From assembly GCF_004684205.1 (NCBI RefSeq), contig NZ_SRIO01000003.1, positions 124,001-188,000 on the forward strand: a stretch of DNA of 64,000 nucleotides, in the 5' to 3' direction. Made by a program: the position numbers and the translations under genes. Numbering within the stretch: position 1 is the first letter of the stretch; the number at the start of each line of letters is the position of its first letter. Below, in pieces: positions 6,301 to 59,864 of this stretch. The DNA comes from Candidatus Macondimonas diazotrophica (GTDB taxonomy: Bacteria > Pseudomonadota > Gammaproteobacteria > UBA5335). The notes below the pieces were generated by a model. It had not been told where the DNA came from, searched no databases, and worked only from the letters and a program-made list of their open reading frames with translations.

Positions 6301-6424
6301 GGCTCAGCTCCGGCATCAGATCGATGTTGGTGCGCATCAGGGTAAAGCTGCCCAGGATCACCATGATCAGCATCACCATGCTGGTGAACACCGGATGAGT
6401 AACGGTAAAGCGCGGCATGTTCAT
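3362..6424 (-). CDS. RND-family efflux pump inner membrane transporter
   Basis: A 1,020-residue inner membrane RND transporter with the usual duplicated 12-TM layout and two large periplasmic loops. The start (PRFTVTHPVFTSMVMLIM) is the characteristic first TM. Of the AcrB proton-relay residues Asp407, Asp408 and Lys940, only the first aspartate is kept: TM4 reads VDNAIVVLEN and TM10 reads VNNAILLVDQ, so Asp408 and Lys940 are both Asn. That pattern occurs in other RND branches (SwrC-like, from memory) and argues against a close AcrB ortholog. Substrate is unknown; the sequence looks like a multidrug or hydrophobic-compound pump rather than a CzcA-type metal pump. It is encoded between its adaptor (53-bp gap) and its TolC-like channel (4-bp overlap). 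Confidence 0.92.
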   Translation of the reverse strand: MNMPRFTVTHPVFTSMVMLIMVILGSFTLMRTNIDLMPELSLPTLTVITTYENASPEEIEELITKPIEEILAAIPGVETLSSTSREGQSVIRVSFIWGTDLDGAANDIRDGFGRIREFMPADADEPIMLKFDTNAFPVMILGIGSNLDALTLRKLIDDQIKFRLERLKGVAAINIWGGLEREIQVQIYPDKIRALRLSLDEVVQALRTANVTLPAGSIDRGNANIRIRIPGRFDNLDEIRGTLIANRGGPIYLHQIADVVDTTAKIDRKALVNGVPGVQLMVRKQSGYNTVEVTNRVEAEMEKIRRDFPQLSFVTVVNTGQYIQRAIDNLTTSLFGGAFLAFAILLFFLRNARAALLVATAMPISVLVAFVLIYFSGFTINMMTLGGLALGVGMMVDNAIVVLENIARKREEEGLDPQNAAIEGAQQIALAIAGGTFTTMVVFLPLIFAEGIAGEMFGQLGWVVSFSLIASLLVALTFTPMLASRLLSRQINLGNQVHGLAERIGRLIAQAETRYKRALDPCVRHPGRTLTATALLVLLSFALIPLIGTEFMPPSDESEVRVEFEMRPGTRLDVVEEKIQEISQIVRDNVPELKHMVVAVGPTLFKPEATSTAEMTAALIPVVERKRSSHEIADDLRVALADYPGGVLRSRAPQDVMLQMIGGGEALQVEIRGPDLDRLNDLADQIADAVETVPNVTDVRRADREGVPQVELHVDRAKTADLGVSVAQIARTLEIALGGTIASRYAESGDESNIVVKLKDATLLTVDEILDLNILNPLGQQITLRNLVNTEAKLGPIRILRNDQQRAIQIGANISGSDLGTVVSNVRKAIAGVPIPAGYQVLFVGEYEELRAAFKDLITVMILAIILVYIIMAMLYESLRDPLIVMFSVPLALIGVNLMLLLTGTTYNIVSLIGSIILIGVVVNNAILLVDQANHLRYDRQFALHDALLEAGRTRLRPILMTALTTMLALVPLAVAQGEGAQIQQSMSRALIGGLISSTFITLFVVPVIYTLFHRKDAAR

Positions 6425-6477
6425 GTTCGATTTCCCGGCCGTCCTTGCAATGGCGTGTGACGATGTTTCAATCTGGA

Positions 6478-7644
6478 TCAGGGTTCGCGGACGCGGGAAA
6501 CTTCCACGCCTTTCCCATCATCCAGCAAATGCAGGCCGAGTGTGACCACCTGTCCTTGCAAGGGGGGGGAGACGATCTGTGTGAGGTCACCGTCCTGTAG
6601 GCCGGTCTCTACAGGAACGAAACGAGCGATTGCACCATCCTCGGTTTGCTCGACACGAAAGACACCCATCTTGCCCTGGCGCTCGACGAGCGCATCGTTG
6701 GAAACAGCGATGGCATTCGGCGCTTGGTCGAAAAGGATACGGGCCCGGCCGAACATACCGGGTTTCAAGTCTCCGGATTCATTGGGAATCGTGACTTCGA
6801 GCAAGGCTTGTCGGGACATTTCGTTGAACTGGGGTGAGATACGGGAAATCACGCCCGTGAACTCCTGATCCGGATACGCCGCGGTAGTCAGGGTGACGGG
6901 TTGGCCGATGGTCAGGCGGCTGTAATCCCGCTCGGTCACGCTCATCTGAGCGATGATCGGCTGAAACGCCAATACTTGGACAACGGGTTCGCTTGGACGC
7001 AACAAGGCGCCTTCATCAACAAACCGCTGCCCCACCACACGCGTCGTATCCTCGTCCGGCCAATCCGCATAGATTTTGGTGTAGGACAGCTTGAGTTCCG
7101 CAGCCTTGAGCGCGGCTTGCGCTTGTTGCAACTGGGCTTTGGCCACGCTCAAGCGAGCTCGGCTGGCGGTGACGCGGGTCAATGCGCCATCGTATTCGGC
7201 CTCTGAGGCAATCTTGCGATCCAGTAGCTGCTTGGTGCGCTGGAAATCACGTTCTGCAACCTGCGCCGAGGCGGTGGCCTCGGACAACTGGGCCTTTGCG
7301 ACCGTCAGCTGAGCCCGGATTCGAATCACTTCCTGGGCGATCTCGTCATCTTCCAGTTCCGCAATGAGCTGACCCTTTTCCACCTGATCACCGACTCCGA
7401 CGGTCAGCTTAAGCAAAATACCACCGACTTTGGGTGTGATGAGGAATTGGGCATTCGGGCGCAGCGTGCCATTGAAGTAACGATAGTCATTCATGTCGAG
7501 TTGGCGCACTGCCGCAGCCTCGACTGCAATGACTGCGGCTGCCTCGGGCTTATCTGCGTTGGAGACGAAGAGACGTTGGATAACGACGCCGACGAACAAC
7601 AGGAAAAACGCGATGACCAGAACGCGTGGAAGCCTTTTCGGCAT
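6478..7644 (-). CDS. RND efflux periplasmic adaptor (membrane fusion protein)
   Basis: A 388-residue HlyD/AcrA-type adaptor linking the pump to the outer membrane channel. One N-terminal TM anchor (about residues 8-26) has no lipobox. A barrel-sandwich half (about 65-100, GDQVEKGQLIAELEDDEI), an alpha-helical hairpin (about 105-195, Ala/Gln/Leu heptads), the second lipoyl half and beta-barrel, and a membrane-proximal domain follow. It is the first gene of the operon. An AAGGAAGG Shine-Dalgarno sequence precedes the ATG at 7644, supporting this start. Confidence 0.9.
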   Translation of the reverse strand: MPKRLPRVLVIAFFLLFVGVVIQRLFVSNADKPEAAAVIAVEAAAVRQLDMNDYRYFNGTLRPNAQFLITPKVGGILLKLTVGVGDQVEKGQLIAELEDDEIAQEVIRIRAQLTVAKAQLSEATASAQVAERDFQRTKQLLDRKIASEAEYDGALTRVTASRARLSVAKAQLQQAQAALKAAELKLSYTKIYADWPDEDTTRVVGQRFVDEGALLRPSEPVVQVLAFQPIIAQMSVTERDYSRLTIGQPVTLTTAAYPDQEFTGVISRISPQFNEMSRQALLEVTIPNESGDLKPGMFGRARILFDQAPNAIAVSNDALVERQGKMGVFRVEQTEDGAIARFVPVETGLQDGDLTQIVSPPLQGQVVTLGLHLLDDGKGVEVSRVREP

Positions 7645-8459: not shown

Positions 8460-9614
8460 TCAGTGCAGTTGTTTCGAGACCGGCAGCGGTGCGTCGACGG
8501 TCTGTGTATGGGTCAGTTCGCCATCCGCCCCCGGGAACAGGGGGGCGCCACAATCCTCGCAGTCGGCAACGGGGAACCGCCCGCGGAGCACGTCGATGCG
8601 TTTGATGCCCATCTGCTGCAATACATCGCGGATCTGAGTGGCAACATCCGAGAGATCATCTTCGCCTTCCAGCAAACCCCATACGGAGCCGTGCAGTACT
8701 TCTGGGTGATTCTCCCGCAACAGACCGATTCGATATTCGACCAGGACAGCGTTGTCATAGCACGGCGCAATCACCGCATGGATCCGGTCCGGTGTCAGGT
8801 CGTACTGCGCCTGCATCTGGGCCGCACAGGCCTGCAGCGTGAATGAGCGCCCATGTTCATCGGTACGGCGCAAGGCCGGGAAATATGCATCTGGCGACAG
8901 CAGGGTGATCGCGCAGTTGCTCAGGAGGTCAGACAATGGCCGGTGAGCCACCTGCTGCCAGTGTTGATCGATGTCGTCTCGGCTTGCGGCAGCGTCGTGC
9001 CAGCGAAACAAGGCCTGATCGCCCGGGCGGGCGCGGATCAGCCCCAGCAGATAGCGCGGGTCCGCCAGATAGCGGTTGCTGGTGGGCATTGCAGCGGCAT
9101 CGACGGCCAGAACCGGCTCGGCCTCAGCCAGCCGTTGTCGCAGATGCGAAGTCAGGGAGTAGGCACCGCAATATCCGGCGGGCAGTTGGTCGGGGCCGAA
9201 CAGAAAATCGGCCAGGACCAGTGAAGCCCCGGCCGCGACCACGCCATCCTTCAGCAGCGCGCACAACTCATGGCACTGCTCGGGGTTGAGTGAACGAGCG
9301 GGAATGTCGTACCGGGACCAGGCCAGGATCGGCAGGGCGATCAACAGTCCCGTCTCACCTCCCATGGCTTCAGCCTCGATCAGGTCCGACAAGCCTTCGA
9401 ACGCCCGGGGAAGCTGGGTATGGAGTCGATCAAGCGCTTCAATGAGGCTCTTTTCGTGACCATCGGCCAGTAGGGCGCGGATCAGGGGCTTCAGGCGATC
9501 TTGATAAAATCGGTCTTCCTGCGCGCATTCCGAACGGCCTAGTCCCAATGCCAGCTGCACCAGTTCGTCGATCCGGCGATGGCCGCGCGATGCGCTTCGG
9601 CTCACTCGTCTCAT
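8460..9614 (-). CDS. DUF2863-like protein of unknown function
   Basis: Starting at the ATG at 9614, which has a GAGGAA Shine-Dalgarno eight bases upstream, the product is 384 residues; the open frame continues upstream but that part is not protein-like. The N-terminus (RRIDELVQLALGLGRSE, then EDRFYQDRL) resembles DUF2863 as I remember it from betaproteobacteria. No catalytic motif is apparent. The C-terminus carries a possible metal-binding pair, DCEDCGAPLF. The gene lies 85 bp downstream of the DUF2126 transglutaminase gene on the same strand, suggesting a shared transcript and perhaps a shared pathway. The family call rests on recall, not a search. Confidence 0.65.
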   Translation of the reverse strand: MRRVSRSASRGHRRIDELVQLALGLGRSECAQEDRFYQDRLKPLIRALLADGHEKSLIEALDRLHTQLPRAFEGLSDLIEAEAMGGETGLLIALPILAWSRYDIPARSLNPEQCHELCALLKDGVVAAGASLVLADFLFGPDQLPAGYCGAYSLTSHLRQRLAEAEPVLAVDAAAMPTSNRYLADPRYLLGLIRARPGDQALFRWHDAAASRDDIDQHWQQVAHRPLSDLLSNCAITLLSPDAYFPALRRTDEHGRSFTLQACAAQMQAQYDLTPDRIHAVIAPCYDNAVLVEYRIGLLRENHPEVLHGSVWGLLEGEDDLSDVATQIRDVLQQMGIKRIDVLRGRFPVADCEDCGAPLFPGADGELTHTQTVDAPLPVSKQLH

Positions 9615-48626: not shown

Positions 48627-49346
48627 TTAATAGCCGTTGCGTGCTTCCAGGGTATCGAGTCGCATGGCGGTGCGGCCCGCTTGAGCTTGGGCGATGCGGC
48701 CGAAGACCCGGCTGGTGAAGTTCAGACCATTGTCGCCGCTTGCCACCGAGGCTGCCGCAAAGGCATTGGCGATGCGGGGCCCGGTGACTTCAATCAGCGC
48801 ATAGGCGATGCCATCAACAGTCGCTTGGGCACGTCCGGTGGTGCCATCGATGACCCGGCTGGCTGGACCGAACAGCGCGTTGAGCGGCGCGGTGAGGATC
48901 GCGGTCGCGGTTCCGACTGCGCCGCCTTCGAGCGTCGCAAACACATTGCCCGCGATATCCAGGGGCGCAGAAATCGGCAGAAACAGGAAATCAAGCGCCG
49001 TACTCACGCCCTGATCGGCCAGGACGAGTGGCCGAAACAGCGGCGCTGCCAGAATGTTCGCGACACCGGCGCCGAATACGCCTGCATTGTTCAGCGCGCC
49101 GTTGGTGAAACCGTTAATGGCGGCCAGTGGCAGGGTGATCGGCAGCAGCAGCGGATTGCTGCTGATCAGCGCGGCGGTGGTCGCCGTCGTGGTGGCATTG
49201 GTGCTGGCGTCGATGTTGACGGTCAGCTGCCCGCTCACGGCCGACAATTCAGAATCCGCGATGCGGATCAGGCCGGCCTCGGCGGTGAGCGGCAGTGCGA
49301 TGGTGAGGGCGAGCGCCCCCAAGGTGTTCAGACCAGAGGTTTTCAT
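48627..49346 (-). CDS. Exported protein of unknown function, paralog A (VSGQ motif)
   Basis: A 239-residue protein with a signal peptide (about 1-24, ending AEA). Directly after the cleavage site comes IADSELSAVSGQ, shared in pattern with paralog B (MTETQMADVSGQ). A Thr/Ala/Leu-rich variable region follows (about 40-111), then a 128-residue C-terminal domain (112-239) that aligns to paralog B without gaps. The domain has TAPLNALFGP, TVDGIAY and FTSRVFGRIAQAQAG. No cysteine, catalytic motif, TM barrel or anchor is evident, though the C-terminus ends in aromatic GY. I do not recognise a characterised family; VSGQ-type motifs after a signal recur in some gammaproteobacterial surface proteins. 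Confidence 0.88.
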   Translation of the reverse strand: MKTSGLNTLGALALTIALPLTAEAGLIRIADSELSAVSGQLTVNIDASTNATTTATTAALISSNPLLLPITLPLAAINGFTNGALNNAGVFGAGVANILAAPLFRPLVLADQGVSTALDFLFLPISAPLDIAGNVFATLEGGAVGTATAILTAPLNALFGPASRVIDGTTGRAQATVDGIAYALIEVTGPRIANAFAAASVASGDNGLNFTSRVFGRIAQAQAGRTAMRLDTLEARNGY

Positions 49347-49524
49347 CGGGATCTCCTGAGATTCAAGTCATGGCCAGTGGGAGACGCAATCGGCGCTCCT
49401 GGCCTTGGGTTCTTCCCTTGTGGATTGCGTCTGCGAGTGCATCGGCAGGGGCCAGGGAGACTTGAGTCACGCTTTCCAGAATGACTGGACAATCGAGCCC
49501 GGATCGAAGGTGGGACGATTCAAA

Positions 49525-49552
49525 GAAAAGGCCGCCCGAAGGCGGCCTTTTC
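49525..49552. terminator. Strong terminator after secreted paralog B
   Basis: A 12-bp perfect stem (GAAAAGGCCGCC paired with GGCGGCCTTTTC) starts 37 bp past the stop of paralog B. On the minus strand the loop reads TTCG and a T4 run follows; the A-tract lets it work in both directions. The GC core matches the terminator of paralog A. Confidence 0.88.
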
Positions 49553-49588
49553 AAACGATCCATCAGCGCCCCACGGGGCGCGGCAGGA

Positions 49589-50329
49589 TCAATAGCCGTA
49601 CTTGCCGGAAATGGCGTCCAGACGCTGGGTGGTCAAGCCAGCCTGAGCCTGGGCAATGCGGCCAAACACGCGGCTGGTGAAGGCCAGGCCGCTGTCTCCC
49701 GCCGCAGCGGAAGCGCCCGCGAAGGCGTTGGTGATCAGAGCGCCCTTCACTTCAATGGCAGCGTAGGCAGCGCCGTCAACAGTCGCTTCGAAGCGGCCGG
49801 TCACGCCGTCCACATAGCGGTTGACCGGGCCGAATACCGCGTTCAGCGGAGCAGTCAGGATGCGCGAAGCCGTGAAGACGACGCCGTCGTTCAGAGCGTC
49901 AAAGACGTTGCCAGCCACATCCAGCGGCGCGGAGATCGGGAAGAACAGGAAGTCCAGCGCAGTGCTCTTGCCCTGAGCGGCCAGATCCAGCGCGCGGAAC
50001 GGACCCATGAACGCGATGTCGGCGATGCCTTCGCCAAAATCTTCCGCATTGTCGATCAGCTGGTCATTGGTGGCACCAGCGGCGACAAAGGGCTGGAAGT
50101 TGTCGTTGAACTCGGGCCACAGGATCAAACCGTCCCCATCAATGAACGTGGGGAGATAGTCCTGGGGGACAACGGGCGAATAGGAGTTGAAGGCGATGGC
50201 GCTGAGAACGCCTTGGCCGGAGACATCGGCCATCTGGGTTTCGGTCATTTCGACCATTTCAGCCTGGGCAGCCATGGGAGCGGCCAGGGCGGCCAGCGAG
50301 GCCAAGGCAGTGAACTTCATGTTGGACAT
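49589..50329 (-). CDS. Exported protein of unknown function, paralog B (VSGQ motif)
   Basis: A 246-residue protein with a signal peptide (about 1-23, ending AQA), then EMVEMTETQMADVSGQ and an acidic, aromatic variable region (about 40-118: FIDGDGLILWPEF, DNAEDFGEGIADIAF). Residues 119-246 align without gaps to residues 112-239 of paralog A; I count 89 identities in 128. FTSRVFGRIAQAQAG is identical in both. GAGGAG nine bases before the ATG is a strong Shine-Dalgarno. A separate terminator lies between the two genes, so they may be transcribed separately. Function unknown; secretion or surface display is inferred. Confidence 0.9.
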   Translation of the reverse strand: MSNMKFTALASLAALAAPMAAQAEMVEMTETQMADVSGQGVLSAIAFNSYSPVVPQDYLPTFIDGDGLILWPEFNDNFQPFVAAGATNDQLIDNAEDFGEGIADIAFMGPFRALDLAAQGKSTALDFLFFPISAPLDVAGNVFDALNDGVVFTASRILTAPLNAVFGPVNRYVDGVTGRFEATVDGAAYAAIEVKGALITNAFAGASAAAGDSGLAFTSRVFGRIAQAQAGLTTQRLDAISGKYGY

Positions 50330-50978: not shown

Positions 50979-53357
<2,379 letters not shown>

Positions 53358-54151
53358 TTGTCGGTTTCATCGGCAAAGCGGACGCAGCCTTCGGCATCGA
53401 CAATGATCACGGTCGGCAGGACGGCGTCGGTGTCGTAGCCGAGTGCAGCCATGCCGACCGGCAAGGCGTCCCGGTGCAGGATACCGAGCGCCCGGGCGGC
53501 GTTCAGCGCCGGATCGTGCAGGTAGCGGAACGGGACGTCGAAGCGTGCCGCCAAGCTGCGGTTGTGGGCGATGGACTGCGGGCTGATCAAGAGAATCTGG
53601 GCGCCGCGTTCGGCAATCTGCCGATATTGCGCGGCGATCTCCTTGACCTGGGCCATGCACAGCGGACACCAGTTGCCGCGAAAGAAGAGCAGGATGGCCG
53701 GCTTTCCGCGCAGATCGCGTGAACGCAGTCGCTGCCCGCTGTTTTCGATCAACTCGAAATCGGGCAGGACAGTGCCCGGGCGAAGTCGCTCGCTGGGCTG
53801 GCGTCCGAAGCGTGAATACCAGTAGACATAGACCCATCCACCCAGTCCGTAAACACCGCCGGCGTAGATCAGGGCCAGCAGACTGCCGCCGGTCATGACG
53901 CCGAGCAAAGCCAGAAACGTTCCAAGACCGGCGCCCCAAGTCAGGGTCGGCAGCTTCGGTCGCGTGCGCGCCTTACCCATCAGGATGAAGCCGGCGAAGG
54001 TCCCCACACTGGCCAGCCCGGCCAGGGCTGCTCCGGTCCAGGCGAGATCCGGGCCCTGGCGCCACAGGACGCTGAGAATATGGCCCAGAACGCCCACCAT
54101 CACGACGATGTAGGGCGTGATGAACCAACGTTTGAGTTGTGCTTGCGTCAT

Positions 54152-54485
54152 GGTTGCGCTCCTTGCTTGCGTGTTTCCTTGCTCTGGTCAGGCGCGTCGT
54201 GTCCGGCGTGCGAGGGAACCGCGGCCGGGAACCACCCGGCGCCTGATGTGGCCGACCGTGGGCGCGTCGACGATCTGTGCGCGACGGGGCTTAAGACTCG
54301 GTCGCCGGAGGATAGCGCAGGCTTACACAAATCGCGCGCGGATGCCCGGAGCGGCTTTGAAAAAGCGGAACGCATCGGCTGGTCGGAAGTCCAAACCGAT
54401 CCGGCCGCTGAGTCCCAGATTGGGCTATGCTTTGTCTTGAGTTACTCAACGCAACCGGATGTGTTCATCCATGCAAGGAGCAGAT
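54152..54485. other. Divergent spacer between the redoxin and DUF2282 genes
   Basis: This 334-bp spacer has no credible ORF. It must contain promoters for both genes. A TATGCT -10-like hexamer lies at 54426-54431 without a good -35, followed by a dyad at 54437-54449 (listed separately). Confidence 0.45.
54437..54449. promoter_or_regulatory. Dyad upstream of the DUF2282 peptide gene
   Basis: TTGAGTTACTCAA is an inverted repeat with 6-bp arms and one central base, 37-49 bp before the start codon and just after a possible -10 hexamer. The position suits a repressor or metal-sensor site. Confidence 0.4.
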
Positions 54486-54812
54486 ATGAGTCAGTCCACG
54501 AAGTCCGCCAAGCTTTCCGGCGCCGCCCTGGCCGCCGCCCTGGGTACGGCGCTTGCGCTCACCGCCGGGCCGGTCACGGCCGGATCGGATCACGGCGCAG
54601 CAGCGGGCAAGGAAAAATGCTACGGCGTTTCGCTCAAGGGCAAGAACGATTGCGCGGCCGGGCCGGGAACCTCCTGCGCCGGCTCGTCCAAGGTCGACTA
54701 TCAGGGCGATGCCTGGAAGATGGTACCCAAAGGCACTTGCGAAGAAACGCCGTCCCCCACCTCGCCGACCGGTTTCGGTCAGCTCGAGCCTTTTGCTGAA
54801 AAGAAAGACTAG
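54486..54812 (+). CDS. DUF2282 protein, bufferin-1-like precursor
   Basis: A 108-residue DUF2282 protein with a signal peptide (about 1-32, ending VTA). The core has four cysteines, Cys45, Cys56, Cys64 and Cys85, in the family pattern [23 protein letters not shown] and [14 protein letters not shown]2282 proteins include bufferin-1 precursors (BufA1), exported peptides modified on cysteines by a DUF692/MNIO enzyme (BufB) with a DUF2063 partner (BufC) and binding copper. Neither partner gene is adjacent here, so modification is inferred only from the precursor. AAGGAG precedes the ATG. Confidence 0.85.
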
Positions 54813-55100: not shown

Positions 55101-56882
55101 TCAGCGTTTCTTCGGCGGCATCAGGTCGGTGATGGTGCCGCTGTAGGATTCGGCAGCGAACGCGATGGTTTCCGACAGGGTCGGGTGCGCATGGATGGTG
55201 AGAGCGATGTCTTCGGCATCGGCGCCCATCTCGACTGCCAGGGCCAGCTCGGCGATCAGATCACCGGCATGCGGTCCGACCACGCCGCCGCCGAGCACAC
55301 GGCCGGTTCGGGAATCGAAGATGAGTTTGGTCAGGCCGTCGTCGCGTCCCATACCCAGCGCCCGGCCGCTTGCGGCCCAGGGAAAGACGCCTTTGCCGAT
55401 GTCGCGATGTGCGGCTTTCGCTTCGGTTTCGGTGAGACCGCACCAGGCCAGCTCGGGGTCGCAATAGGCGACCGAGGGAATCACGCGGGCAAGGAAGGCC
55501 GACTTTTCACCCGCAGCGGCCTCTGCCGCGACCTTGCCCTGATGGGTGGCCTTGTGAGCCAGCATGGGGCCCGGCGTGCAGTCGCCGATCGCGTAGATAT
55601 CCCCCCGGGATGTGGCCATGCGATCATCGACCGGAATCAAGCCCTGCGCATCGAGTGTCAAGCCCGCGGCCTCCAGATTGAGGCGGTCGCCGTTCGGTCG
55701 CCGGCCCACGGCGACCAGAAGCCGATCGTAACGTTGTTCCTCCGGCGCCTGATCGCCTTCGAAGCGAACGACCAGGCCATCCGGCTCGGCCTCCACCGCA
55801 TTCACCCGGGTCTGCAGGTAGATCGCCTCCAGCCGGCGTGAGAGCGATTTTTGCAGGATGCGCACCAGATCGGCATCGGCGCCCGCAACCAGTTGCGGTG
55901 CCATTTCAACCACCGTTACCCGGCTGCCCAGTGCGCTGTAGAATGTTGCCATCTCGAGGCCGATGATGCCGCCGCCAATGATCAGGAGCCGCGGTGGGAT
56001 CTCGGGCAGATCCAGCGCGCCGGTGGAATCCATGATGCGTGGGTCCTCGGGCAGAAACGGGAGGCTCACGGGGCGCGAGCCGCAGGCGATAATGGCCTGT
56101 TCGAAGTCGAGTTTGTGTTCACGCTCGCCGTTCCTGAGGGTGACCGAGTGCGGACCGGCGAAGCGCGCTTCGGCCTGGATAACCTCGACGCCCCGCTGTT
56201 TGGCCAGCTGCGCCAGCCCGCCGGTCAGCCGGCCAACGACCCCGTCCTTCCAGTTACGCAGCGCATCGGTGTCGATTTCGGGCTCTCCAAAGCGGATGCC
56301 ATGATCGGCCATGGCGCGCGCATCGGTCATCACCTGCGCAGCATGGAGCAGTGCCTTGGACGGAATGCAGCCGATGTTGAGACAGACGCCACCGAGGGTA
56401 GGTTCGCGTTCGACGAGGGTGACCTTCATGCCCAGATCGGCGGCCCGAAAGGCAGCGGTGTAGCCACCGGGTCCGCCGCCGATGACCAGCACGGACGAGC
56501 CGGCGCCTTTTCGCACTGCGGCGGCATTCGGGCGCCCCGCCGGGCTGGGTTCGGGCGGCGCCGATGCCGGTTCTGAGGGCGTGTCAGCGGAAGGCGGCGT
56601 CTCGGCGCTGTCTTCGGCTTTGGGCGCTTCGGCCGGTTCGGTGTCGGTGGCCAGCACGACGATCGGGGTGCCCTGGGAAACCTTGTCGCCGACCTTGACG
56701 AGGATGTCCTGGACGGTTCCGGCGGCGGGCGCCGGGACATCCAGGGCGGCTTTTTCGCTTTCGAGGGTGATCAGCGGCTGTTCGGGGGTGACGGTATCGC
56801 CGGGTTTGACCAGCACGTCCACCACGTCGACATTCTCGAAATCCCCGATGTCGGGGACGGTCACTTCCTGGGTCTGGGCCAC
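55101..56882 (-). CDS. lpdA: Dihydrolipoyl dehydrogenase with N-terminal lipoyl domain (E3)
   Basis: A 593-residue E3: an N-terminal lipoyl domain (about 1-80, lipoyl Lys44 in ESEKA), an Ala/Pro/Glu linker (about 82-125) and a full dihydrolipoamide dehydrogenase. FAD motif VIGGGPGGYTAA, redox pair Cys167/Cys172 (GGVCLNIGCIPSK), NAD motif IGGGIIGLEMA and the C-terminal HAHPTLSE containing the catalytic His are present. It follows aceE by 27 bp. The linked lipoyl-E3 form occurs with PDH in several beta- and gammaproteobacteria. No E2 catalytic domain (HxxxDG) is present. Confidence 0.95.
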   Translation of the reverse strand: MAQTQEVTVPDIGDFENVDVVDVLVKPGDTVTPEQPLITLESEKAALDVPAPAAGTVQDILVKVGDKVSQGTPIVVLATDTEPAEAPKAEDSAETPPSADTPSEPASAPPEPSPAGRPNAAAVRKGAGSSVLVIGGGPGGYTAAFRAADLGMKVTLVEREPTLGGVCLNIGCIPSKALLHAAQVMTDARAMADHGIRFGEPEIDTDALRNWKDGVVGRLTGGLAQLAKQRGVEVIQAEARFAGPHSVTLRNGEREHKLDFEQAIIACGSRPVSLPFLPEDPRIMDSTGALDLPEIPPRLLIIGGGIIGLEMATFYSALGSRVTVVEMAPQLVAGADADLVRILQKSLSRRLEAIYLQTRVNAVEAEPDGLVVRFEGDQAPEEQRYDRLLVAVGRRPNGDRLNLEAAGLTLDAQGLIPVDDRMATSRGDIYAIGDCTPGPMLAHKATHQGKVAAEAAAGEKSAFLARVIPSVAYCDPELAWCGLTETEAKAAHRDIGKGVFPWAASGRALGMGRDDGLTKLIFDSRTGRVLGGGVVGPHAGDLIAELALAVEMGADAEDIALTIHAHPTLSETIAFAAESYSGTITDLMPPKKR

Positions 56883-56909
56883 GGGCGTTCTCCTCGGGAT
56901 GGCAGGGCG

Positions 56910-59597
56910 CTAGACGGTCCAGGGCGCCGGTTTCTCGGGATCGATGCCCAGTTCGGTCAGCGCCTGGGCCAGCCGGTCCATGGGCTTTTCGCCCTCCTCG
57001 GTGCCGGCCTCGGTCATCAGCTCGCCATCCTCGGCAAGGGATCTGAGGGCGGTGAGGACGACATACTCGGCGGTGACCTCGAAGAACTCCCGCAGCGCTG
57101 CTCGGGTGTCGGAGCGGCCATAGCCGTCGGTACCCAGAACGCGGTAGCGCCGAGGAACGTAAGGCCGGATCTGCTCCGCATAGGCGCGCATGTGATCGGT
57201 AGTGGCAACGATCGGTCCCTGGGTATCCGACAGACAGTCCATCACATGACAGCTGCGCGCGGGTTCAACCGGATGCAGCATATTCCAGCGCTCGGCGGCC
57301 ATGCCTTCGCGTGCCAGCTCGGTAAAGCTCGTCACGCTCCAGACATCGGCTGCCACACCGAAGCGCTCTTCCAGGATCTGGGCGGCGCGCTCGACTTCGC
57401 GCAGGATGGTGCCCGAACCCAGCAGCTGGACACGTGGCCCCTCGTGGTTGCTCTGGCGCAGGCGATACATCCCCTTGACGATATCGTCCGCCACCGCGTC
57501 GGGAAGTGCCGGGTGTGCATAGTTCTCGTTCATCACGGTGATGTAGTAGAAGACATCCTCATGGTGCTCGAACATGCGTCGCATGCCGTCGTGCAGGATC
57601 ACCGCCAGTTCGTAGGCGTAGCATGGATCGTAGGCGATGCAATTGGGGTGGGTCAGAGCAAGGATATGGCTGTGGCCATCCTGATGCTGCAGGCCCTCGC
57701 CGGCCAGGGTGGTTCGTCCGGCCGTCCCGCCGAGCAGGAAACCCCGGGCGCGGCTGTCGCCTGCGGCCCAGATCAGGTCGCCGATGCGCTGGAAGCCGAA
57801 CATCGAGTAGAAAATGAAAAACGGGATCATGCTCATCGCATGATTGCTGTAGGCCGTCGCCGCCGCCAGCCAGGATGAGAAGGCGCCAGCTTCGGTAATC
57901 CCTTCCTCGAGGATCTGGCCTTTGGTGTCCTCCCGGTAGTAAGCCAGTTGATCGGCATCCTGTGGCGCATAGAGCTGTCCCACGGGGGAGTAGATGCCAA
58001 TCTGGCGGAACAGGCCTTCCATGCCGAAGGTGCGGGCTTCGTCCGGGACGATGGGGACGATGTGTGGCCCGAGTGTGGGGTCGCGGCTCAAGGTGCTGAG
58101 CATGCGCACAAAGGCGGTGGTGGTGGACATCTCCCGTCCGTCGGTGCCCTTGAGCAGAACATCGAAGGTGGACAGGGGTGGGATGGCCTGGGGCTCGCTT
58201 TCTCGTCGGCGCGAGGGGAGATAACCACCCAGGGCGCGGCGCCGCTCCTGCAGATAGGTGATCTCCGGGCTGTCTGGCGGCGGCCGATAGAAAGGCGCTT
58301 CTGCGATCTCGGCATCTGAAATGGGGATGTTGAAGCGGTCGCGGAAGGCCTTGAGCGCATCTTCGCCCAGTTTCTTCTGCTGATGCGTGATGTTCTGGCC
58401 CTCGCCGGCCTCACCCATGCCATAGCCCTTGACGGTCTTCGCCAGAATGACCGTGGGTTGGCCTGTGTGTTGTACCGCTGCGGCGTAGGCGGCGTAGATC
58501 TTGTGTGGATCGTGCCCGCCGCGATTGAGCCGCCAGATGTCCTGGTCGGTCATGCGCGAGACCATGGCCTTGAGCTCGGGATACTTGCCGAAGAAGTGTT
58601 CGCGCGTGTAGGCGCCGCCCTTGGCCTTGTAGTTCTGGTATTCGCCATCCACCGCTTCGGTCATGCGCTGGCGCAGCAGGCCCTTGGTGTCAGCGGCAAG
58701 CAGGGGATCCCAATAGGACCCCCAGATGACCTTGATGACATTCCAGCCCGCGCCCCGGAAATCGCCCTCGAGTTCCTGGATGATCTTGCCATTGCCGCGC
58801 ACCGGGCCATCGAGACGCTGCAGATTGCAGTTGATCACGAAGATCAGGTTGTCCAGTTTCTCGCGTCCCGCCAGGCCGATGGCACCCAAGGATTCGGGTT
58901 CGTCCATCTCACCATCGCCGCAGAAGACCCAGACCTTGCGGTTATCCGTTTCGGCCAGACCTCGATGCTGCAGGTATTTCATGAAGCGGGCCTGGTAGAT
59001 GCCCATGATGGGACCCAGTCCCATCGAGACCGTGGGGAACTGCCAGAATCCCGGCATGAGGCGGGGATGCGGATAGGACGATAGGCCGGGTGCGAGCGCT
59101 TCCTGACGGAAGCGGTGCAGATGTTCCTTGTGCAGGCGGTATTCGAGATAGGCGCGCGCGTAGATGCCCGGCGTGCAGTGCCCCTGGATATAGAGCAGAT
59201 CGCCGCCATGGGTTTCGCTGGGCGCGTGGAAGAAGTGGTTGAAGCCCACGTCATAGAGTGTGGCGGCCGACGCAAAGCTGGCAATGTGTCCGCCGATGCC
59301 GGGATTGAACTTGTTGGCCTTTACGACCATCGCCAGCGCATTCCAGCGCACCAGCGACCGGATCCGCCATTCCATGTCGGCGTCACCGGGGCTGCGTTGC
59401 TCTTGCGCAGCCGGGATGGTGTTGAGATAGGCGGTATTGGGATCGAATGGGATGTGAGCGCCGGAGCGGCGGGCATGATCGATCAGTGCTTCCAGGAGAA
59501 CATGGGCGCGCTCTGGCCCTTCTCGCTCGATGACCGCTTCCAGGGCATCCAGCCACTCCCGGGTCTCCTGGGGGTCCACGTCGGCGGGCTTGGCCAT
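56910..59597 (-). CDS. aceE: Pyruvate dehydrogenase E1 component, homodimeric type
   Basis: An 895-residue AceE oxidatively decarboxylating pyruvate with ThDP and loading acetyl onto E2 lipoyl groups. GHIASFASAATLYDVGFNHFF, the ThDP motif GDGEMDEPESLGAI with INCNLQ, and RYRVLGTDGYGRSDTR are diagnostic. AAGGAGACGCC precedes the ATG at 59597; the frame is open 17 codons further upstream. aceF does not follow: lpdA comes next after 27 bp. No PdhR-type site is apparent upstream. Confidence 0.97.
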   Translation of the reverse strand: MAKPADVDPQETREWLDALEAVIEREGPERAHVLLEALIDHARRSGAHIPFDPNTAYLNTIPAAQEQRSPGDADMEWRIRSLVRWNALAMVVKANKFNPGIGGHIASFASAATLYDVGFNHFFHAPSETHGGDLLYIQGHCTPGIYARAYLEYRLHKEHLHRFRQEALAPGLSSYPHPRLMPGFWQFPTVSMGLGPIMGIYQARFMKYLQHRGLAETDNRKVWVFCGDGEMDEPESLGAIGLAGREKLDNLIFVINCNLQRLDGPVRGNGKIIQELEGDFRGAGWNVIKVIWGSYWDPLLAADTKGLLRQRMTEAVDGEYQNYKAKGGAYTREHFFGKYPELKAMVSRMTDQDIWRLNRGGHDPHKIYAAYAAAVQHTGQPTVILAKTVKGYGMGEAGEGQNITHQQKKLGEDALKAFRDRFNIPISDAEIAEAPFYRPPPDSPEITYLQERRRALGGYLPSRRRESEPQAIPPLSTFDVLLKGTDGREMSTTTAFVRMLSTLSRDPTLGPHIVPIVPDEARTFGMEGLFRQIGIYSPVGQLYAPQDADQLAYYREDTKGQILEEGITEAGAFSSWLAAATAYSNHAMSMIPFFIFYSMFGFQRIGDLIWAAGDSRARGFLLGGTAGRTTLAGEGLQHQDGHSHILALTHPNCIAYDPCYAYELAVILHDGMRRMFEHHEDVFYYITVMNENYAHPALPDAVADDIVKGMYRLRQSNHEGPRVQLLGSGTILREVERAAQILEERFGVAADVWSVTSFTELAREGMAAERWNMLHPVEPARSCHVMDCLSDTQGPIVATTDHMRAYAEQIRPYVPRRYRVLGTDGYGRSDTRAALREFFEVTAEYVVLTALRSLAEDGELMTEAGTEEGEKPMDRLAQALTELGIDPEKPAPWTV

Positions 59598-59864
59598 GGC
59601 GTCTCCTTCTTGTTCATGCGTCAAACCGGTTGGAACATGATTCGGCAAGGCAGGCTGCCCACGATAGTAGCGCCAGCGCCGCGACGATTGCCAGCGTGCG
59701 GCTGCTCTGTGGTGAGCGATGGCGAACCCCTGTGCGATCGTGGGACGTGCTGCCGATCCGCCGGTTCTGGTGGGACAATGCTCCGGGCTGAAGGATCCCC
59801 GGGACAGGGTCGGGAGCGTTAATCCGCTGCGCCGGCGAGGCCCGGGAAGGATCGCTTCGGTATG

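Follow-up and report, generated by a model that had tools for sequence, protein, structure and literature searches.

A stand-alone bufferin-1 precursor gene in Candidatus Macondimonas diazotrophica, probably served by modifying enzymes encoded on another contig

Introduction

A bufferin-1 precursor (Buf1, BufA1; DUF2282/PF10048) that is encoded away from BufB (DUF692/MNIO) and BufC (DUF2063) raises the question of whether it is modified at all and, if so, by which enzymes. Stand-alone Buf1 precursor genes in genomes whose MNIO lies elsewhere have already been reported in a family survey, which states that such precursors may be modified by enzymes encoded at a different locus or may stay unmodified, and that their modification in trans is an open question (PMC12452194). 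Stand-alone precursors have thus been described before, as has the idea of their modification in trans, and the gene described here is no different in kind from those of the survey; we add a comparison of synteny, selection and promoter for one case. The gene lies in a window of 64,000 nucleotides from Candidatus Macondimonas diazotrophica (the whole stretch analysed, contig NZ_SRIO01000003.1), and its genome is a clean test case, with exactly one MNIO, one DUF2063 and, of its two similar precursors, just one in the operon.

Results

The precursor gene is intact and its candidate enzymes lie on another contig

The initial annotation had described the product as a DUF2282 peptide with four cysteines in the BufA1 pattern, and both parts of this description were borne out. 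A profile search gave a DUF2282 score of 88.8 bits against a curated cut-off of 22.4, and Cys 45, 56, 64 and 85 align with those of the copy in a genus-mate (G003) and of a second precursor encoded on contig C5 of the same genome. A chance reading frame is ruled out. By eye, the N-terminus resembles a signal peptide, with a basic start, a hydrophobic stretch and a VTA-G site. A PDB sequence search with the protein returned no match. The gene is intact, and its product is a small, presumably secreted peptide that probably binds copper.

Whole-genome searches of the assembly (2.80 Mb, 96% complete) for DUF2282, DUF692 and DUF2063 identified two genes for DUF2282 and a single gene each for DUF692 (MNIO) and DUF2063. 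The search for the two enzyme genes had been proposed together with the claim that the window holds neither, and this claim stands, since the sole matches sit on C5. There, bufA, bufB, bufC and doxX follow one another as a complete locus with the second DUF2282 gene, and genes for an ECF sigma factor and a zf-HC2 protein are oriented toward the buf genes from the other side. Because the only DUF692 and DUF2063 genes lie with this second precursor, the gene in the window is an orphan solely with respect to its neighbours; the term fails for the genome as a whole, and we use it below in the narrower sense. The orphan resembles the BufA1/BufB/BufC systems in its domain, its four-Cys register and its full conserved core, and in that MNIO and DUF2063 genes, as candidate enzymes, are encoded in the same genome. 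Unlike canonical BufA1 loci, it lies outside the enzyme operon and is not preceded by the promoter motif seen at the canonical locus; adjacency of MNIO and DUF2063 genes, which is absent here, is usual, not universal, and not decisive for membership. Since the modifying enzymes are encoded once elsewhere in the genome, the orphan is probably a second substrate for them.

Table 1 Features of the orphan precursor locus (positions in the window).
Feature	Position	Strand	Remarks
ygiQ-type radical SAM gene	50979..53357	+	next to the orphan on its left in the genus-mate
Divergent membrane AhpC/TSA redoxin gene	53270..54151	-	PF00578, AhpC-TSA 86.6 bits; outside the conserved neighbourhood
Shine-Dalgarno AAGGAG	54475..54480	+	5 nt before the orphan ATG; also in the genus-mate copy
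Stand-alone bufferin-1 (DUF2282) precursor gene	54486..54812	+	108 aa; PF10048 88.8 bits; 25/25 conserved columns
Cys45 codon, first Cys	54618..54620	+	by alignment; reported disulphide partner in the bufferin-1 family (PMC12452194)
Cys56 codon, central Cys	54651..54653	+	by alignment; expected thiooxazole site (PMC12452194)
Cys64 codon, central Cys	54675..54677	+	by alignment; expected thiooxazole site (PMC12452194)
Cys85 codon, last Cys	54738..54740	+	by alignment; reported disulphide partner in the bufferin-1 family (PMC12452194)
lpd (dihydrolipoamide dehydrogenase) gene	55101..56882	-	conserved right neighbour of the orphan

The orphan is conserved and under purifying selection in a genus-mate

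A syntenic ortholog of the orphan was found in G003 between lpd and the end of the radical SAM gene that we take to be ygiQ, with 71 nt from the ygiQ stop to the precursor ATG. The two proteins are 77% identical over the preprotein and 87% over the domain, and the two upstream regions have little in common beyond the Shine-Dalgarno sequence. In the mature part, 9.0 changes at 155.3 non-synonymous sites and 25.0 at 45.7 synonymous sites gave a dN/dS of 0.061, a rough value with dS at about 1 and near saturation; the signal part gave 0.257. The precursors of C5 and of contig C162 gave 0.092 for the mature part and 0.222 for the signal part. The mature part of the orphan is thus under strong purifying selection, unlike a decaying gene, rough as the ratio is.

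These results bear on the case that the initial annotation named as counting against its reading, a second complete buf locus with a closer precursor that leaves this gene unexpressed. A second complete locus does exist, and together with the lack of a recognisable promoter and the unconserved upstream DNA of the two species it would suit a relic or redundant copy that is not expressed to any effect. Yet the frame is intact, the Shine-Dalgarno sequence is conserved and a syntenic ortholog with a low dN/dS in its mature part is present; conservation and purifying selection in the genus-mate argue against a dead gene, and we regard a relic as quite improbable. In other relatives, G004 carries lpd with other neighbours and lacks the orphan gene there, the G002 contig ends at lpd, and the fetched G001 contig ends before lpd. 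Neither the orphan nor an MNIO was found in the G001 and G002 assemblies. Absence at the locus is insecure in these two because the G002 contig ends at lpd and ygiQ was recovered from neither assembly, and on the same grounds a co-loss of orphan and MNIO within the genus was dropped.

The orphan keeps the core of enzyme-linked precursors

Core columns were defined as those conserved in at least 90% of 85 precursor sequences from MNIO-linked loci, which yielded 25 columns; one sequence of the set (L035) was wrongly cut, which can only lower conservation, and another (L056) apparently comes from G003's own contig. The orphan matches every one of them, including all four Cys and the columns around the central Cys, and the genus-mate ortholog and the C5 precursor match 24 each. 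Identity between the orphan and the C5 precursor is 76.9% over the 65 residues of the domain and 80.5% from Cys1 to Cys4. This falls within the range of tandem precursor pairs beside one detected MNIO (65.5-100% over the domain), and we infer that such pairs share their enzyme, as was also inferred in the family survey (PMC12452194). The initial annotation had put forward three alternatives, namely modification in trans, no modification, or a stand-alone copper-binding peptide; the first fits best, because one MNIO and one DUF2063 are encoded elsewhere beside a precursor with a similar core.

Phylogenetic analysis placed the orphan pair and the C5/C162 pair in clades of their own. Supports were 99/91 and 100/97, respectively, in a 92-row tree, where one mis-cut row (L035) produced an extremely long branch and made the root meaningless, and 100/94 and 99/96 in a 48-row tree, where that row was replaced and the rows of L066-L101 and four others, mostly alphaproteobacterial, were dropped. 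Both trees were built without about 15 distant rows of loci below L025 and without the L056 row. Because each pair forms its own supported clade, the split between the orphan and the C5 precursor looks older than the two species, and an origin of the orphan as a recent duplicate of the C5 precursor was rejected. Forcing the four rows into one clade was not rejected in the 48-row set (p-AU 0.239).

The orphan lacks the promoter motif of the canonical operon

The sequence TGTAAG-N16-CGACTA is present upstream of C5 bufA. Among 95 upstream regions (250 nt each, start codons chosen by rule), TGTAAG-N15..17-CGWCT was found in 17, against 0.015 expected from mononucleotide shuffles, and in 16 of these 17 it lies 76-132 nt before the ATG; a GTAAC form was found in 12 of the 95, a raw count with no shuffle baseline. 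The exact motif is missing from 78 regions, including that of G003's other operon (C29), and one stand-alone precursor, L051, has it. The full motif has a single occurrence in the orphan's own genome, the one at C5, with a reversed-pattern control of two. The C5 and C162 precursors have upstream matches of 12/12 and 11/12 letters, and neither orphan has an upstream match better than 8/12, the level of shuffled sequences. A scan for a sigma-70-type promoter upstream of the orphan found none, with 0.1 expected by chance. The C5 operon is probably controlled by an ECF sigma factor, and the one encoded next to it presumably reads this motif. From these comparisons of upstream sequence, the orphan is likely to be under control separate from that of the C5 operon.

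A similar arrangement has been described in Caulobacter, where the reported sigF regulon contains two DUF2282-DUF692-DUF2063 operons with the promoter GTAACC-N16-CGAA (PMC3511200). The canonical operon on C5 resembles this system in its promoter architecture and in its putative ECF sigma control. In the Caulobacter account, however, each DUF2282 gene comes with enzymes of its own and both belong to the regulon, whereas the orphan has neither adjacent enzymes nor the motif.

A probable second precursor modified in trans

Taken together, we consider it probable that the orphan is a functional second bufferin-1 precursor that is modified in trans by the C5 enzymes, exported, copper-binding and expressed apart from the operon. 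The precursor would be made in the cytoplasm, where the C5-encoded BufB and BufC (DUF692/DUF2063) would convert its central Cys 56 and 64 to thiooxazoles; it would then be exported via its putative Sec signal peptide and would bind copper in the periplasm. The thiooxazole and disulphide chemistry of this proposal is taken from PMC12452194 and PMC13097082. In the latter, a two-repeat substrate loses 8 Da, which would come to about 4 Da for each converted central Cys; absorbance near 305 nm would also be expected. Lying outside the ECF-linked operon, the gene may be expressed alone or with its neighbours, and so differently from bufA of C5. More tentatively, and with rather more doubt than belief, one enzyme pair could serve two precursors under two controls, the C5 operon giving an ECF stress-induced supply and the orphan being separately expressed and conserved in the genus, with modification in trans by the MNIO as a stable, selected state.

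Stand-alone and split precursors occur in other genomes

DUF2282 genes numbered 21 in 17 of 56 genomes, the orphan's own genome included. In 12 of the 21, an MNIO match lies on the same contig no more than about 1 kb away; the remaining nine include a G032 precursor whose position at the end of a contig allows no judgement. Eight of these nine are in genomes with an MNIO elsewhere, the exception being G045, whose genome (94% complete) gave no MNIO match. In a scan of a species-genome collection, bufB was present within the fetched flank (up to 6 kb) in 78 of the best 80 of 530 confirmed loci, and the genomes of the other two, L049 and L051, both have an MNIO elsewhere. If an MNIO is able to act from a distance, split loci are to be expected, of the kind found in G052 and G024. 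In G052, a single contig, genes for DUF2063 and a sigma factor come after DUF2282 (L136, 6462-8160), with the nearest MNIO about 222 kb off; in G024, DUF2282, DUF2063 and DoxX genes lie together (L140, 4693-6325), with the MNIO on another contig.

The DUF2282 protein of G045 is a candidate for an unmodified one, and because that genome has no MNIO match, some stand-alone precursors may be unmodified. The orphan, too, might work in this state, as a periplasmic four-Cys peptide with free thiols or two disulphides and a role in copper, another metal or redox. No MNIO gene is near it, the stand-alone precursor of G045 is in a genome without an MNIO match, and the survey's treatment of stand-alone genes leaves the possibility open (PMC12452194). 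We nevertheless consider this unlikely for the orphan, which retains every column that is conserved among the MNIO-linked precursors, the ones around the central Cys included, and whose genome has the enzymes; moreover, DUF2282 genomes without MNIO are rare in the figures of the survey, at 21/4072 (PMC12452194).

At the G045 locus (L137, 4111-7132), DUF2282 is followed by genes for gluconate 2-dehydrogenase subunit 3, a GMC oxidoreductase and DoxX. At a locus of Microbulbifer rhizosphaerae (L143), two DUF2282 genes lie within 3 kb (6388-6993 and 8859-9479) with no MNIO, and the product of the first is lipoprotein-like by eye, with a Cys after LPS. A passage search of a paper on Microbulbifer copper RiPPs found no mention of DUF2282 (PMC12538549).

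Neighbouring genes in the window

The redoxin gene reported beside the orphan in the initial annotation is real and divergent from it. This arrangement would suit a functional unit of redoxin and orphan, serving thiol maintenance or acting as a metal-redox pair. However, no redoxin gene is present between ygiQ and the precursor at the orthologous G003 locus, and the G003 assembly (82% complete) has no close redoxin homologue, its best match having an E of 4.8e-9 and 25% identity; moreover, the homologues (50-54%) of two family members both sit in genomes without any DUF2282 match. Because the genus-mate copy has no redoxin beside it, the link is unconserved, a conserved partnership was rejected, and we regard a functional unit as highly implausible.

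Shortly before the orphan's Shine-Dalgarno sequence, at 54432-54454, is an imperfect palindrome, TTGTCTTGAGT-T-ACTCAACGCAA, which was not seen upstream of the genus-mate precursor. On the lpd side (55101-59648), lpd comes directly after aceE, and the order in G002, G003 and G004 is aceE-aceF-lpd. In the window, the lpd product begins (VAQTQEV...) like the aceF products of the genus-mates and not like their lpd products; aceF and lpd are fused in frame between the two lipoyl domains, and the E2 core is lost. The cause is either a genuine deletion or a collapse during short-read assembly. On the minus strand at 48627-50329, two adjacent genes encode a pair of similar proteins, each about 240 residues long and apparently secreted; both contain 'VSGQ' close to the N-terminus and 'RVFGRIAQAQAG' close to the C-terminus.
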